From Reyranella sp. (lineage in GTDB: Bacteria; Pseudomonadota; Alphaproteobacteria; Reyranellales; Reyranellaceae): DNA of 64,000 nt. The notes under the pieces were generated by a model that had not been told where the DNA came from, did no database searches, and saw nothing but the letters and a program-made list of their open reading frames with translations. The translations under genes and the position numbers were made by a program. The stretch is from assembly GCF_030651995.1 (NCBI RefSeq), contig NZ_JAUSBN010000025.1, forward strand, positions 1 through 64,000, given 5' to 3'. The stretch's first letter is position 1. Every line of letters begins with the position of its first letter. Below are positions 48,370-51,099 of this stretch, piece by piece.

Positions 48370-49140
48370 CTAGCCCTGAACCGAATAGCCGCCGTCGACC
48401 GTGATGGCGGCGCCGGTGACGTAGTCCGAGGCGGATGCGGCGAGGAAGACCGCGATGCCCGCGAAGTCGTCGGGCGTGCCCCAGCGCCCGGCCGGCGTCC
48501 GCTTCAGCACCGAATCGTGCAGCGCCGGCACGTCACGGCGCGCGCGCTGGGTCAGCGCAGTGTCGATCCAGCCGGGCAGGATCGCATTTACCTGGATATT
48601 GTCCTTGGCCCAGGCGGTGGCCATCGCCTTGGTCATCTGCACGATACCGCCCTTGCTCGCGGCATAGGCTGTCGTGAAGGACGCCCCGAAGATCGACATC
48701 ATGGAGCCGATGTTGATCATCTTGCCGCCACCGGTCTTCATCATCGCCGGGTAGGCGGCCTGGCTGCACAGAAAGGCGCTGGTCAGGTTGCTGTCCAGAA
48801 CCTGATGCCATTCGGCCGAGGTGTACTCCTGTGGCTGCTTGCGGATGTTGATTCCGGCGTTGTTCACGAGGATGTCGAGCCGTCCGTGGGCCGCGACCGC
48901 ATTGGCGATGAGCGCGCGGCACGACTCTTCCTTCAGCACATCAACAATGGTGGAACTGGCGTTCGCCCCGGTCGCTTGCAGTTCCTTGACCGCCGCCTCG
49001 TTCTTGGCCGCGTCGCGTCCCGCGACGACGACGGTCGCGCCGGCGCGCGCCATGCCGAGGGCCATGCCGAGACCGATGCCGCCATTGCCGCCGGTGACGA
49101 CGGCCACGCGGCCGGAAAGATCAAAAAGCTTCATGGCCAT
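48370..49140 (-). CDS. SDR-family oxidoreductase
   Basis: The 256-residue protein is a classical short-chain dehydrogenase: TGGNGGIGLGMA for NAD(P), NNAG, catalytic Ser in INIGSMMSIFG, YAASK for Tyr and Lys, and a C-terminal DYVTGAAITVDGGYSVQG. It resembles 2-deoxy-D-gluconate 3-dehydrogenase/glucose dehydrogenase types. The substrate is unknown. Two starts (49140 and 49134) both have usable ribosome-binding sites. Confidence 0.88.
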   Translation of the reverse strand: MAMKLFDLSGRVAVVTGGNGGIGLGMALGMARAGATVVVAGRDAAKNEAAVKELQATGANASSTIVDVLKEESCRALIANAVAAHGRLDILVNNAGINIRKQPQEYTSAEWHQVLDSNLTSAFLCSQAAYPAMMKTGGGKMINIGSMMSIFGASFTTAYAASKGGIVQMTKAMATAWAKDNIQVNAILPGWIDTALTQRARRDVPALHDSVLKRTPAGRWGTPDDFAGIAVFLAASASDYVTGAAITVDGGYSVQG

Positions 49141-49176
49141 CTCCCGTTCCTCAAACTCCACCTATAGCGAACCGGG

Positions 49177-49202
49177 GGAACCCGAAACAGAGGCGGGCCG
49201 TT
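49177..49202 (+). promoter_or_regulatory. EcfG (general stress sigma) promoter, exact consensus
   Basis: GGAAC at 49177-49181, a 17-bp spacer and CGTT at 49199-49202 match the EcfG promoter GGAAC-N16/17-CGTT exactly. It reads away from the SDR gene toward the 3' end of nepR. No protein gene follows in this direction. A terminator occurs 105 bp later. Confidence 0.75.
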
Positions 49203-49208
49203 AGTGCC

Positions 49209-49336
49209 GGACAGTGGCGTGAGCACAACCTGCCTGAGCACAAGCACTTTCGCAGCACGAGTCCGTGGCCTGTCGGCCGGGCTGACCGGCAGGTCGCGGA
49301 CAAGGGTGGCGGCGATCGCGAGATCGCCGCCATTTT
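49209..49336 (+). ncRNA. Candidate stress-induced small RNA
   Basis: A transcript from the EcfG promoter at 49177 would run about 128 nt to a terminator. A long hairpin forms first (GTCCGTGGCCTGTCGG at 49261 pairing with CCGGCAGGTCGCGGAC at 49287-49302, with G-U pairs). It is followed by an intrinsic terminator with an 11-bp perfect stem (TGGCGGCGATC at 49307, GATCGCCGCCA to 49332), a GCGA GNRA loop and TTTT at 49333-49336. The only plus-strand ORF here (49204-49419) runs past the terminator and has no family look. Caulobacter GsrN is a precedent for a sigma-T-controlled sRNA, but I see no clear sequence match to it. The rest of the 49337-49456 gap shows nothing. Confidence 0.6.
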
Positions 49337-49456
49337 CTGCGGAAGGGTTTGGTGGAAAGAGTAGCCGAACCCCACTGGCTCGAGCGGTGCAACAAGCAAA
49401 AGCTTGGATATACTGTTGAGCCGTCAGAAGACTCGCGGGTATGGAGCCTGTCGGCC

Positions 49457-49684
49457 CTACTTCTTTGGCGGGTCTTCGGGGGAGTCGCCCTTCTTGTTCG
49501 CGGCGGCGTCCTTGTCGATGAGGTTGAGGAGATCGTCGGGCAGCGGCTCGCTCGCGATCTCGTCGTACATCGCGTGAAGCTGCTTGTGCAGCCACATGTC
49601 GAAAGGCCGATCGTTGCTCCGAGGCTTGGAACGCGCCTGTCCTCCAGCGCGTCCCGCATCGGGCTTATCGTCGTCAGTGGCCAT
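49457..49684 (-). CDS. nepR: Anti-sigma factor NepR
   Basis: The 75-residue protein has the NepR core RPFDMWLHKQLHAMYDEIASEPLPDDLLNLID, two helices that clamp EcfG or, after stress, PhyR. The flanks are charged and flexible, as in the family. ATG 49684 gives the normal length. A longer frame to 49762 adds unrelated residues. It is last of three minus-strand genes: sigma factor, EcfG, nepR. Confidence 0.9.
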   Translation of the reverse strand: MATDDDKPDAGRAGGQARSKPRSNDRPFDMWLHKQLHAMYDEIASEPLPDDLLNLIDKDAAANKKGDSPEDPPKK

Positions 49685-49801: not shown

Positions 49802-50383
49802 TTAGCGAGTTGCGACAGCCGATTCGTCGTCGCGGAGCGCCGTGGAGGTCCGCCCGGACTCTGAGGGGCGGCGTGTCTCGCCTTCCAGCAGGAGGCGTTC
49901 GAGCGTGTCGCGAGCGCGCGAGATGCGGCTCTTGACCGTCCCGACCGATACGCCGGTATGTTCGGCGATCGTCTCATACGGCAGTCCTTCGAGGACCGCG
50001 AGAAGCAAGGCTTCGCGCTGCGCCGCAGCAAGCTTGCCGAACGCAGACATGAACTCCCGCATCACCAGGCCGCTGTCCTGATGGGGGGGGTGGGAGAGCG
50101 ATTCGGCAATCGCGGTGTCGACGGGTACGGTCGGACGGCGGCGGCGGAGGCCCGAAATGAATTCGTTGCGCTGGATACGAAACAGCCAGGCGGCGAGGTT
50201 GGTGCCGGGCTGGAAACTGTTGCGGCCGGTGAGCGCCTTGATCACCGTGTCGTGCACGAGGTCGTCCGCTGCGTCCCGGTCGCGCGTAAGAGACAGAGCG
50301 TAGATACGCAGGCGGGGCAGGATCGTCTTGAGCTGCTCGTGGAAGTCCCGAGTACCGTCATCCTGCTTGGTCTGCGTGCTCAT
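49802..50383 (-). CDS. ecfG: General stress sigma factor EcfG
   Basis: The 193-residue ECF sigma factor starts at ATG 50383 after GGAGATCGCC. Region 2 is LPRLRIYALSLTRDRDAADDLVHDTVIKAL ... NLAAWLFRIQRNEFISGLRRRR, and region 4 is LAAAQREALLLAVLEGLPYETIAEHTGVSVGTVKSRISRARDTLERLL. The match to EcfG and its place between nepR and PhyR identify it as the ECF15 sigma that recognises GGAAC...CGTT. It is released when PhyR~P takes NepR. Confidence 0.92.
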   Translation of the reverse strand: MSTQTKQDDGTRDFHEQLKTILPRLRIYALSLTRDRDAADDLVHDTVIKALTGRNSFQPGTNLAAWLFRIQRNEFISGLRRRRPTVPVDTAIAESLSHPPHQDSGLVMREFMSAFGKLAAAQREALLLAVLEGLPYETIAEHTGVSVGTVKSRISRARDTLERLLLEGETRRPSESGRTSTALRDDESAVATR

Positions 50384-50502: not shown

Positions 50503-50967
50503 CTACTGGAGTCTATCTGAAAGATACTTGCGAGCTCGCGATACGCGCGCTTTGAGGGTTCCCACCGAACAACCGCACAGTCGGGCCGCTTCCTCATAGG
50601 AAAAGCCGCCCGCCCCGATCAGTACCAGGGCTTCTCGCGATTGCGGGTTAAGCTTCCACAGCTCCGAGGAGAGCTCCTTCAACGCCATTGTGGCTTCGGG
50701 ATTGTCCACCGCGGCCAAGGGCGTCGCCGCGTCGTTGTCGATCGTCAAAGGACGGCGACGCTGCGTCCTGAGATCGGAGTAGAAGCGATTGCGCATGATG
50801 GTGAAGAGCCAGCCCTTGAGATTGGTGCCTGGCGTAAACTGGGTCTGCTTGTCGAGAGCGGCCAGAACGGTGTTCTGAACGAGATCGTCGGCCGCCTCGC
50901 GCTCGCGACACATGAAACGTGCGAAGGCACGCAAGTCGGGTAGGAGCGCGACGATCTCTTTTTTCAT
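50503..50967 (-). CDS. Second EcfG-like ECF sigma factor
   Basis: The 154-residue protein is a compact ECF sigma with region 2 (ALLPDLRAFARFMCREREAADDLVQNTVLAALDKQTQFTPGTNLKGWLFTIMRNRFYSDL) and region 4 (LNPQSREALVLIGAGGFSYEEAARLCGCSVGTLKARVSRARKYLSDRL). It is related to the adjacent EcfG, and several Alphaproteobacteria carry such paralogues. Whether NepR controls it is unknown. It may recognise the same promoters or modulate the main EcfG. The start is ATG 50967, and GTG 50970 is adjacent. Confidence 0.87.
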   Translation of the reverse strand: MKKEIVALLPDLRAFARFMCREREAADDLVQNTVLAALDKQTQFTPGTNLKGWLFTIMRNRFYSDLRTQRRRPLTIDNDAATPLAAVDNPEATMALKELSSELWKLNPQSREALVLIGAGGFSYEEAARLCGCSVGTLKARVSRARKYLSDRLQ

Positions 50968-51074
50968 CACCTTTCATCTGGGGACGGTGGCGCAAGGGTG
51001 AAAGGGAAAATTGCGACGGCAACCCAGATGTAGGTGCATTTGCTATGACACGGGTACCCGGAATCGGTTGGCAG

Positions 51075-51099
51075 GGAACCTTCGCGGAGGACGTGCGTT
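51075..51099 (+). promoter_or_regulatory. EcfG promoter, exact consensus
   Basis: GGAAC at 51075-51079, a 16-bp spacer and CGTT at 51096-51099. It points toward phyR but lies 334 bp before its start. A tiny frameshifted ORF and a strong hairpin come first. Confidence 0.75.

Follow-up and report, generated by a model that had tools for sequence, protein, structure and literature searches.

Next to nepR in Reyranella we find a non-coding RNA that is conserved and preceded by an EcfG-type promoter, a reading that the comparison of related genomes strongly supports. This RNA appears to be what was kept of an mRNA for a small lipoprotein, namely its 3′ end, which is our main point and one that was absent from the preliminary description of this DNA. 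Promoter and retained 3′ end together probably form a small RNA gene whose product would act in trans through its loop, a proposal in which we have clearly more confidence than doubt.

The candidate RNA gene in the window

The window, as we call the whole stretch of 64,000 nt that was analysed, is placed in Reyranella by sequence kinship, with R. massiliensis, R. soli and R. aquatilis among its closest named loci. It contains a locus in which Pfam recognizes phyR, nepR and two sigma genes, one of them of the EcfG type. The anti-sigma factor gene nepR lies at 49457–49684 on the minus strand (Pfam NepR, 30.4 bits, over the cut-off) and the sigma gene at 49802–50383 (−); the latter shows the Pfam sigma-70 regions 2 and 4 and takes the name EcfG from its linkage to nepR and phyR. 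The second ECF sigma gene adjoins ecfG at 50503–50970 (−) and was found in 28 of 31 related loci scanned. A short-chain dehydrogenase gene (SDR; 48370–49134, −; Pfam adh_short_C2), divergent from the RNA, provided the flanking marker by synteny.

The EcfG consensus is GGAAC-N16/17-CGTT, and an exact match GGAAC-N17-CGTT, which recurs in relatives, is present at 49177–49202 (+), just as the preliminary description had reported. Such GGAAC matches (N16 or N17) occur twice in the window against 0.89 expected, and 26 of 100 shuffled sequences reach two matches. The earlier argument that the features are unlikely to coincide by chance needs to be shifted: the promoter match alone is weak evidence, and the observation rises above chance because it is conserved in relatives, not through the window alone. 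The other exact EcfG-type match in the window, at 51075–51099 (+), lies upstream of phyR. The SDR upstream region with its TATAGCG-like block and the EcfG-type promoter stand back to back at 49132–49202. Within the EcfG spacer, a GAAACAG-like block is common to many loci and altered in genome G016, where the SDR gene is broken; this block may serve the SDR gene.

The predicted transcript opens with a poorly conserved 5′ leader (49209–49260, +), its start being placed about 7 nt after CGTT, and continues on the same strand with two hairpins. Hairpin 1 (49261–49301), indicated by fold and covariation, has a 16-bp stem and a loop at 49277–49285; the near-invariant loop sequence CCGGGCTGAC (49277–49286), whose last base closes the stem, is the proposed contact site. 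The intrinsic terminator (49303–49336), indicated by fold and conservation, has a GNRA-capped stem of 15 pairs including G-U, 11 of them perfect with the loop GCGA (49307–49332), and TTTT at 49333–49336. The strong hairpin and the 11-bp GNRA-capped terminator with its TTTT, both proposed earlier, are hence located where they had been placed. The fold of 49209–49337 has −67.2 kcal/mol (z = −3.98), and none of 200 shuffles is equally stable. A simple terminator scan of the window did not list this terminator, its U-run being short; across the loci, the U-run is likewise short and often broken by C, after a strong terminator stem.

That no gene follows the promoter was also borne out, with no credible gene found between promoter and terminator. 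The reading frame that ends in the loop, a relic discussed below, has just 6 codons from its start codon to the loop UGA. A mechanically called 71-aa ORF (49204–49419, GTG start) crosses the RNA in another frame, which has no promoter-side start in most relatives. Codon rhythm over the RNA region was found in no frame, with mean entropies of 0.34–0.43 at all codon positions (22 rows). Rfam families gave no match over the gathering threshold in the window, where only chance-level matches appeared (E 4.5–7.9), and no match in nine related loci.

Selection on the RNA and its place in Reyranella

For the analysis of selection we used an alignment (A1) of the 28 loci that carry the RNA without an ORF, in which 91.9% of the cells of the two-hairpin structure are paired. 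Both sides change in 12 of 27 pairs, where shuffles give 8.1 and reach this number in 2 of 500 cases, and the covariation score is 0.280 compared with 0.190 in shuffles (0 of 500) and 0.029–0.117 when the structure is slid by 1–3 columns, with the caveat that related sequences can exceed shuffles. In hairpin 1, both sides change in 8 of 16 pairs; its helix is paired in 87.7% of cells, with the column pairs 14–36 and 17–33 failing in 10 and 14 of the 28 loci, respectively. The terminator stem is best kept, with 98.0% of cells paired. RNAalifold returned essentially the same two hairpins from A1. Thus the covariance check suggested in the preliminary description, once run, gave compensatory changes in both stems, in relatives that keep the flanking genes. 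Because G-U cells outnumber A-C cells in the ORF-less loci (94 versus 24), the plus strand is taken to be the folding RNA. This G-U bias, together with the single strong match per genome, ruled out a DNA site or a dispersed repeat.

Of the 28 ORF-less loci, 26 share the loop CCGGGCUGAC unchanged, the exceptions being one substitution (L036) and one deletion (L064). Conservation of the RNA was further compared with four-fold degenerate codon sites in 21 ORF-less loci, which comprise 14 of the 16 loci of the window clade (L002 and L036 excluded) and 7 of the R. soli clade. RNA identity exceeds that of the four-fold sites of both SDR and EcfG in all 210 pairs, with means of 0.82 for the RNA, 0.61 for the SDR sites and 0.48 for the EcfG sites. 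The flanks are also less alike than the RNA (0.62 for the 40-nt leader and 0.59 for the downstream flank), even though gapped alignment inflates both values.

A DNA search of 101 genomes gave matches in 41 of them (29 of the 70 of good quality), and all 30 loci retrieved from this search lie between an SDR gene and nepR. With an RNA model (R1), 40 of the 65 genomes of the genus were matched at E ≤ 0.01 and 37 at E ≤ 2.5e-8. All 37 strong matches, 30 of them known from the DNA search and 7 from genomes added by the RNA model (E ≤ 2.5e-8), occupy this same place between SDR (broken in G016) and nepR. No genome has more than one strong R1 match; second ones are rare and weak (E ≥ 0.0018). Because 25 of the 65 genomes, some of them incomplete, gave no R1 match at E ≤ 0.01, the RNA is, judged by gene content, dispensable. 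Of 385 genomes drawn across the class, R1 matched 7: four belong to the genus, among them that of the window, and the matches to the other three are weak; these large searches used stricter filters, by which weak matches are lost. The three matches outside the genus were rejected as chance, as one (L146) lies in an unrelated gene context and the other two match mainly the terminator. On this evidence the RNA is, in its sequence distribution, a genus-level feature.

To compare states of the locus, genome contigs were searched with the EcfG protein, which gave 76 loci, and those with an SDR gene beside nepR were retained. The final set of 49 loci consists of these retained loci, the window and L002, L008 and L015, three loci from the DNA search that lack a named counterpart. 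Excluded were loci in which nepR has no SDR neighbour, additional ecfG copies, L033 (truncated), sigma genes that are not related and G016 (L145); the remaining loci of the DNA search agree with named loci in their match identities and, treated as identical places, entered the count only once. Four states were found: 11 loci with the parent ORF described below, 2 with a remnant ORF plus RNA, 28 with RNA and no ORF, and 8 with neither. R. massiliensis 521 (L044), R. soli (L048) and R. aquatilis (L040) belong to the loci with RNA only. In loci with a clear RNA, the gap between SDR and nepR ranges from 190 to 819 nt.

The promoter follows these states closely. A G[GC]AAC-N16/17-CGTT motif is found no more than 120 nt from the start of SDR in 39 of the 41 loci with RNA and/or parent ORF, that is in 11/11 ORF loci, 2/2 remnants and 26/28 RNA-only loci (it is missing from L032 and L036), and in 0/8 loci with neither. 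Because it is gone where ORF and RNA are both gone, promoter and RNA are, as far as these loci tell, inherited together. The RNA-only loci divide into 13 of 28 with exact GGAAC, 13 with GCAAC and 2 with neither. Upstream of phyR the GCAAC form recurs, often alongside GGAAC, with two matches (one of each) in many of 20 loci scanned, and because of this recurrence GCAAC may be a real promoter variant. The spacing from promoter to RNA is 6–61 nt (26 loci), and in several relatives the promoter ends just 6–21 nt before the modelled RNA. Half of 20 scanned loci (10) have a further EcfG-type match that stands just after nepR and points into the gap between nepR and the RNA (L048:3978–4306, +; similar places in L042–L046, L049–L051 and L054). 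A 95-aa ORF (METDMLASEDKKKAMTNPSSVF...) starts at this match in L048, the only locus in which an ORF was sought there.

In G016 (L145, about 917–1445), the SDR gene is a pseudogene that has lost its start, carries a large deletion and changes frame, and it matches SDR only at codons 25–40, 106–127 and 119–254, in two frames. Promoter, loop and terminator are intact, and no ORF match was found. Because the SDR gene is broken there, promoter and RNA cannot serve it in this genome.

The parent lipoprotein gene and its probable losses

Four relatives (L052, L055, L056 and L068) carry behind the same promoter an ORF for a lipoprotein of 104–105 aa, counted from the homologous start. A version of 77–79 aa with an internal deletion is present in L058 and L065, and L061 and L015 hold remnant ORFs of about 29–36 aa. 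The last eight or so codons of the parent gene (77–105 aa) and its stop form the 5′ arm and the loop of hairpin 1. Indeed, the ORF ends with GAC GAG TTC, variable alanine and arginine codons and CGG CCG GGC TGA, the stop falling within the loop. A relic of these last codons is found in the window at 49259–49285 (+), where GAG TCC GTG GCC TGT CGG CCG GGC TGA corresponds to the ancestral ...EFAARRPG followed by the stop; the TGA at 49283–49285 is inside the loop. This ORF is absent from 28 loci, the window among them, and 25 of these retain the exact core with the relic frame (the core is altered in L036, L060 and L064). The RNA overlaps the mRNA 3′ end and uses its terminator in six loci that have both ORF and loop; in the window, the ORF is lost.

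The converse is seen in L059 and L069–L072, which retain the ORF and not the loop sequence. Among these, R1 gave weak matches to L071, L072 and L059 (E 4.6e-6 to 3.6e-4) and left L069 and L070 unmatched. In the six loci with ORF and loop, four-fold sites are identical in 66/85 cases in the last nine codons versus 188/432 elsewhere. For the five loci with ORF and no loop, the figures are 26/51 versus 214/412, which is no difference; these comparisons are pairwise and not independent. Because synonymous sites are constrained in the last codons where the loop is retained, the sequences suggest that both functions, protein and RNA, were once carried by one mRNA.

Pfam gave no family over its cut-off for three of the lipoproteins. 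Paralogues with C..YGF motifs are encoded elsewhere in the window genome, the best of them 42% identical. A longer, two-repeat C..YGF lipoprotein lies between phyR-like and sigma genes in another Reyranella stress locus (L092:1746–2228, −), a hint that lipoproteins of this type have long accompanied the stress locus.

The order of events was read from an IQ-TREE tree of the three linked proteins SDR, NepR and EcfG (51 rows), rooted with two distant rows without SDR. The ORF-bearing loci are nearest to the root and interleaved with the others, the branch closest to the root being weak (87/16). At fewest, six changes of ORF state are needed on this tree. In at least five places, a provisional count, the ORF was lost or reduced and the RNA retained: the window clade (100/99), the R. 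soli group with L015 (97/90), L060 with L096 (98/92), L061, and L063/L064. The sister group of the window clade contains the ORF-bearing L069–L072 (97/89), and for this reason the loss in the window clade is separate from that in the R. soli group. We infer losses rather than gains because the deletions are graded and because of where the root lies.

On balance, though with some reserve, we favour an ancestral bifunctional stress mRNA that encoded the lipoprotein and, in its last codons and terminator, with the stop in the seed loop, a regulatory RNA. The two functions would then have been split repeatedly within the genus, at least five lineages having shed or gutted the protein while retaining the RNA downstream of the original EcfG promoter, and others having retained the protein and let the loop drift. 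If true, this would be a natural series that shows how the 3′ end of an mRNA turns into an independent bacterial sRNA gene when the coding sequence is deleted.

Proposed action, alternatives and precedents

The proposed mechanism begins with PhyR, which would free EcfG from NepR so that the RNA is made; here the promoter is seen as a conserved sequence, and induction is expected from it. In the ancestor, hairpin 1 would have consisted of the last codons and the stop of an EcfG-driven lipoprotein mRNA, with the terminator behind it, and this region would already have had its own function as RNA. Deletions in at least five lineages, supported by the comparison of loci, would have removed or gutted the coding sequence and drawn the promoter near to the hairpins, leaving a stand-alone RNA with a predicted length of about 80–130 nt. 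Presented on the covarying stem and protected by the terminator hairpin, the loop CCGGGCUGAC would pair with short complements in target mRNAs, probably with Hfq, and translation or stability of the targets would be altered under stress. Hfq is present in the window genome; ProQ was not found there, with a control search that matched only E. coli.

The search for targets gave no convincing candidate. The exact loop complement GTCAGCCCGG has 22 sites in the window genome, one of them the RNA gene itself, versus 33 for the reversed control, and is thus not in excess. The one site near a start that looked credible by eye, at codons 8–11 of a permease-like gene (also named by eye), was dropped, the gene being found in only 5 of 65 genomes, and other GTCAGCCCGG sites near the starts of mechanical ORFs were set aside by eye as unlikely genes. 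No 7-mer complements of the loop were found near the starts of nepR, ecfG and SDR (31 loci each), phyR (27) or the second sigma gene (28). For phyR, a shortened N-terminus of the query shifted the start by about 7 codons, and the scanned region still spans the true start. The 6-mer complements, counted without a control, number 13 for nepR (in 11 of 31 loci), 3 for ecfG, 0 for SDR, 5 for phyR and 1 for the second sigma gene. A 23–25-nt stretch of hairpin 1 (query 113–137) matches another place in 12 genomes. In the window genome this is a 24/25-nt match (L031:3322–3346; C77:30321–30345), antisense to a coding stretch that by eye looks like a DadA-type FAD oxidoreductase. As 6 of the 12 genomes are without the RNA (G002, G006, G009, G021, G026 and G055), we regard this second place as coincidence.

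That no convincing base-pairing target emerged would also fit a real RNA that acts as a decoy or sponge for a protein, with the loop as protein site and not as pairing seed, and a near-invariant loop on a variable stem is what protein recognition could leave behind. We nevertheless consider this unlikely: we recognized no known protein motif in the loop, Hfq is present, and conservation concentrated in the loop is usual for pairing sRNAs too. A quite improbable reading sees in the RNA the terminator or tail of a decayed gene that insulates the stress promoter from the oncoming nepR transcript, with no function in trans. The RNA would indeed end transcription from a promoter that faces nepR, and the terminator stem is its best-kept part; yet an insulator has no use for hairpin 1, which covaries, or for its fixed 10-nt loop, and the promoter is gone (0/8) where ORF and RNA are gone. 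Its position between SDR and nepR and opposite to both invites the thought of a cis action on either gene through convergent or divergent transcription. This is very doubtful, as the gap varies so widely in length with the sequence conserved and not mere position, and as the RNA outlives the broken SDR gene in G016.

To a short peptide, made from the leftover frame or from another one, we assign next to no probability. The remnant ORFs of L061 and L015 are in its favour, and the RNA is free of stop codons in the two other frames in 25 and 23 of the 28 loci, respectively, which is common in G+C-rich DNA. However, in the 25 ORF-less loci with the relic frame, 13 have at most 6 codons from a start and 5 have 23–27, and the remaining 7 show only long frames that enter from the SDR antisense strand. 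The other frames often lack a start after the promoter and show no codon rhythm, and the frame switches between close relatives (e.g., L047 and L050 versus L046 and L048). There is, finally, only a slim chance that the RNA is a divergent form of GsrN, the EcfG/sigmaT-dependent sRNA known from Caulobacter. The two are alike in their stress-sigma promoter, in a size of about 100 nt and in their position by the general stress locus, as far as the accessible text on GsrN goes (PMC5869019). According to the same text, however, the best-conserved part of GsrN is a 5′ C-rich loop (PMC5869019), whereas here the 5′ leader is variable and the conserved loop is CCGGGCUGA. Moreover, several relatives leave only those 6–21 nt between promoter end and modelled RNA, and the origin of the RNA is traced to a lipoprotein 3′ end.

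The preliminary description had left open whether this is an unlisted member of a known family or a new RNA, and had treated the adjacency to nepR as a contrast with GsrN. We favour a new RNA, with no Rfam family and no GsrN-like 5′ C-rich loop; its layout and 3′-end origin likewise set it apart from GsrN as described in the accessible text. The adjacency is no mark of novelty, as predicted GsrN homologues typically adjoin the ecfG/nepR/phyR locus (PMC5869019, accessible part). Other EcfG-type general stress regulons share the promoter motif and the PhyR/NepR/EcfG neighbours, but the output here is an RNA, not a protein. The nearest precedent for the loss of an ORF from a dual-function stress RNA is, going by the available part of PMC4021124, SgrS/SgrT of enteric bacteria: this too is a stress RNA with the ORF in its 5′ part and the base-pairing part and terminator in its 3′ part, and the Yersinia SgrS appears truncated at the 5′ end and without the ORF. 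In contrast, Reyranella has a lipoprotein gene of 77–105 aa whose last codons and stop are overlapped by the RNA, the ORF loss is recurrent with graded intermediates, and pairing is putative. CpxQ-type sRNAs are similarly conserved 3′ ends of stress-protein mRNAs with their terminator (PMC9438474, accessible part). Here, however, the mRNA body is gone in 28 of the 36 clear-RNA loci, so that only the 3′ part is left downstream of the ancestral promoter and release by processing would be unneeded. The accessible part of the 3′-end sRNA review covers the kind and was not seen to cover this route of origin (PMC9438474). In the open-licence literature, as far as its accessible text goes, we found no identical case of an sRNA born by loss of a coding sequence, SgrS of Yersinia being nearest, and the titles and abstract openings of the literature found describe no Reyranella sRNA.

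To our knowledge, the origins of bacterial sRNA genes are mostly inferred from single cases, and Raghavan and colleagues have reportedly described sRNA birth through genome rearrangement. Reyranella offers at one syntenic site in one genus a full series in which the RNA accompanies a complete gene, a shortened gene or a remnant, stands by itself, or is missing together with the gene. Because this series lies within one genus and because promoter and RNA seem to be inherited together, it becomes directly testable how a stress sRNA originates from the 3′ end of an mRNA. For the Reyranella group itself, the finding points to a probable RNA branch of the general stress response.
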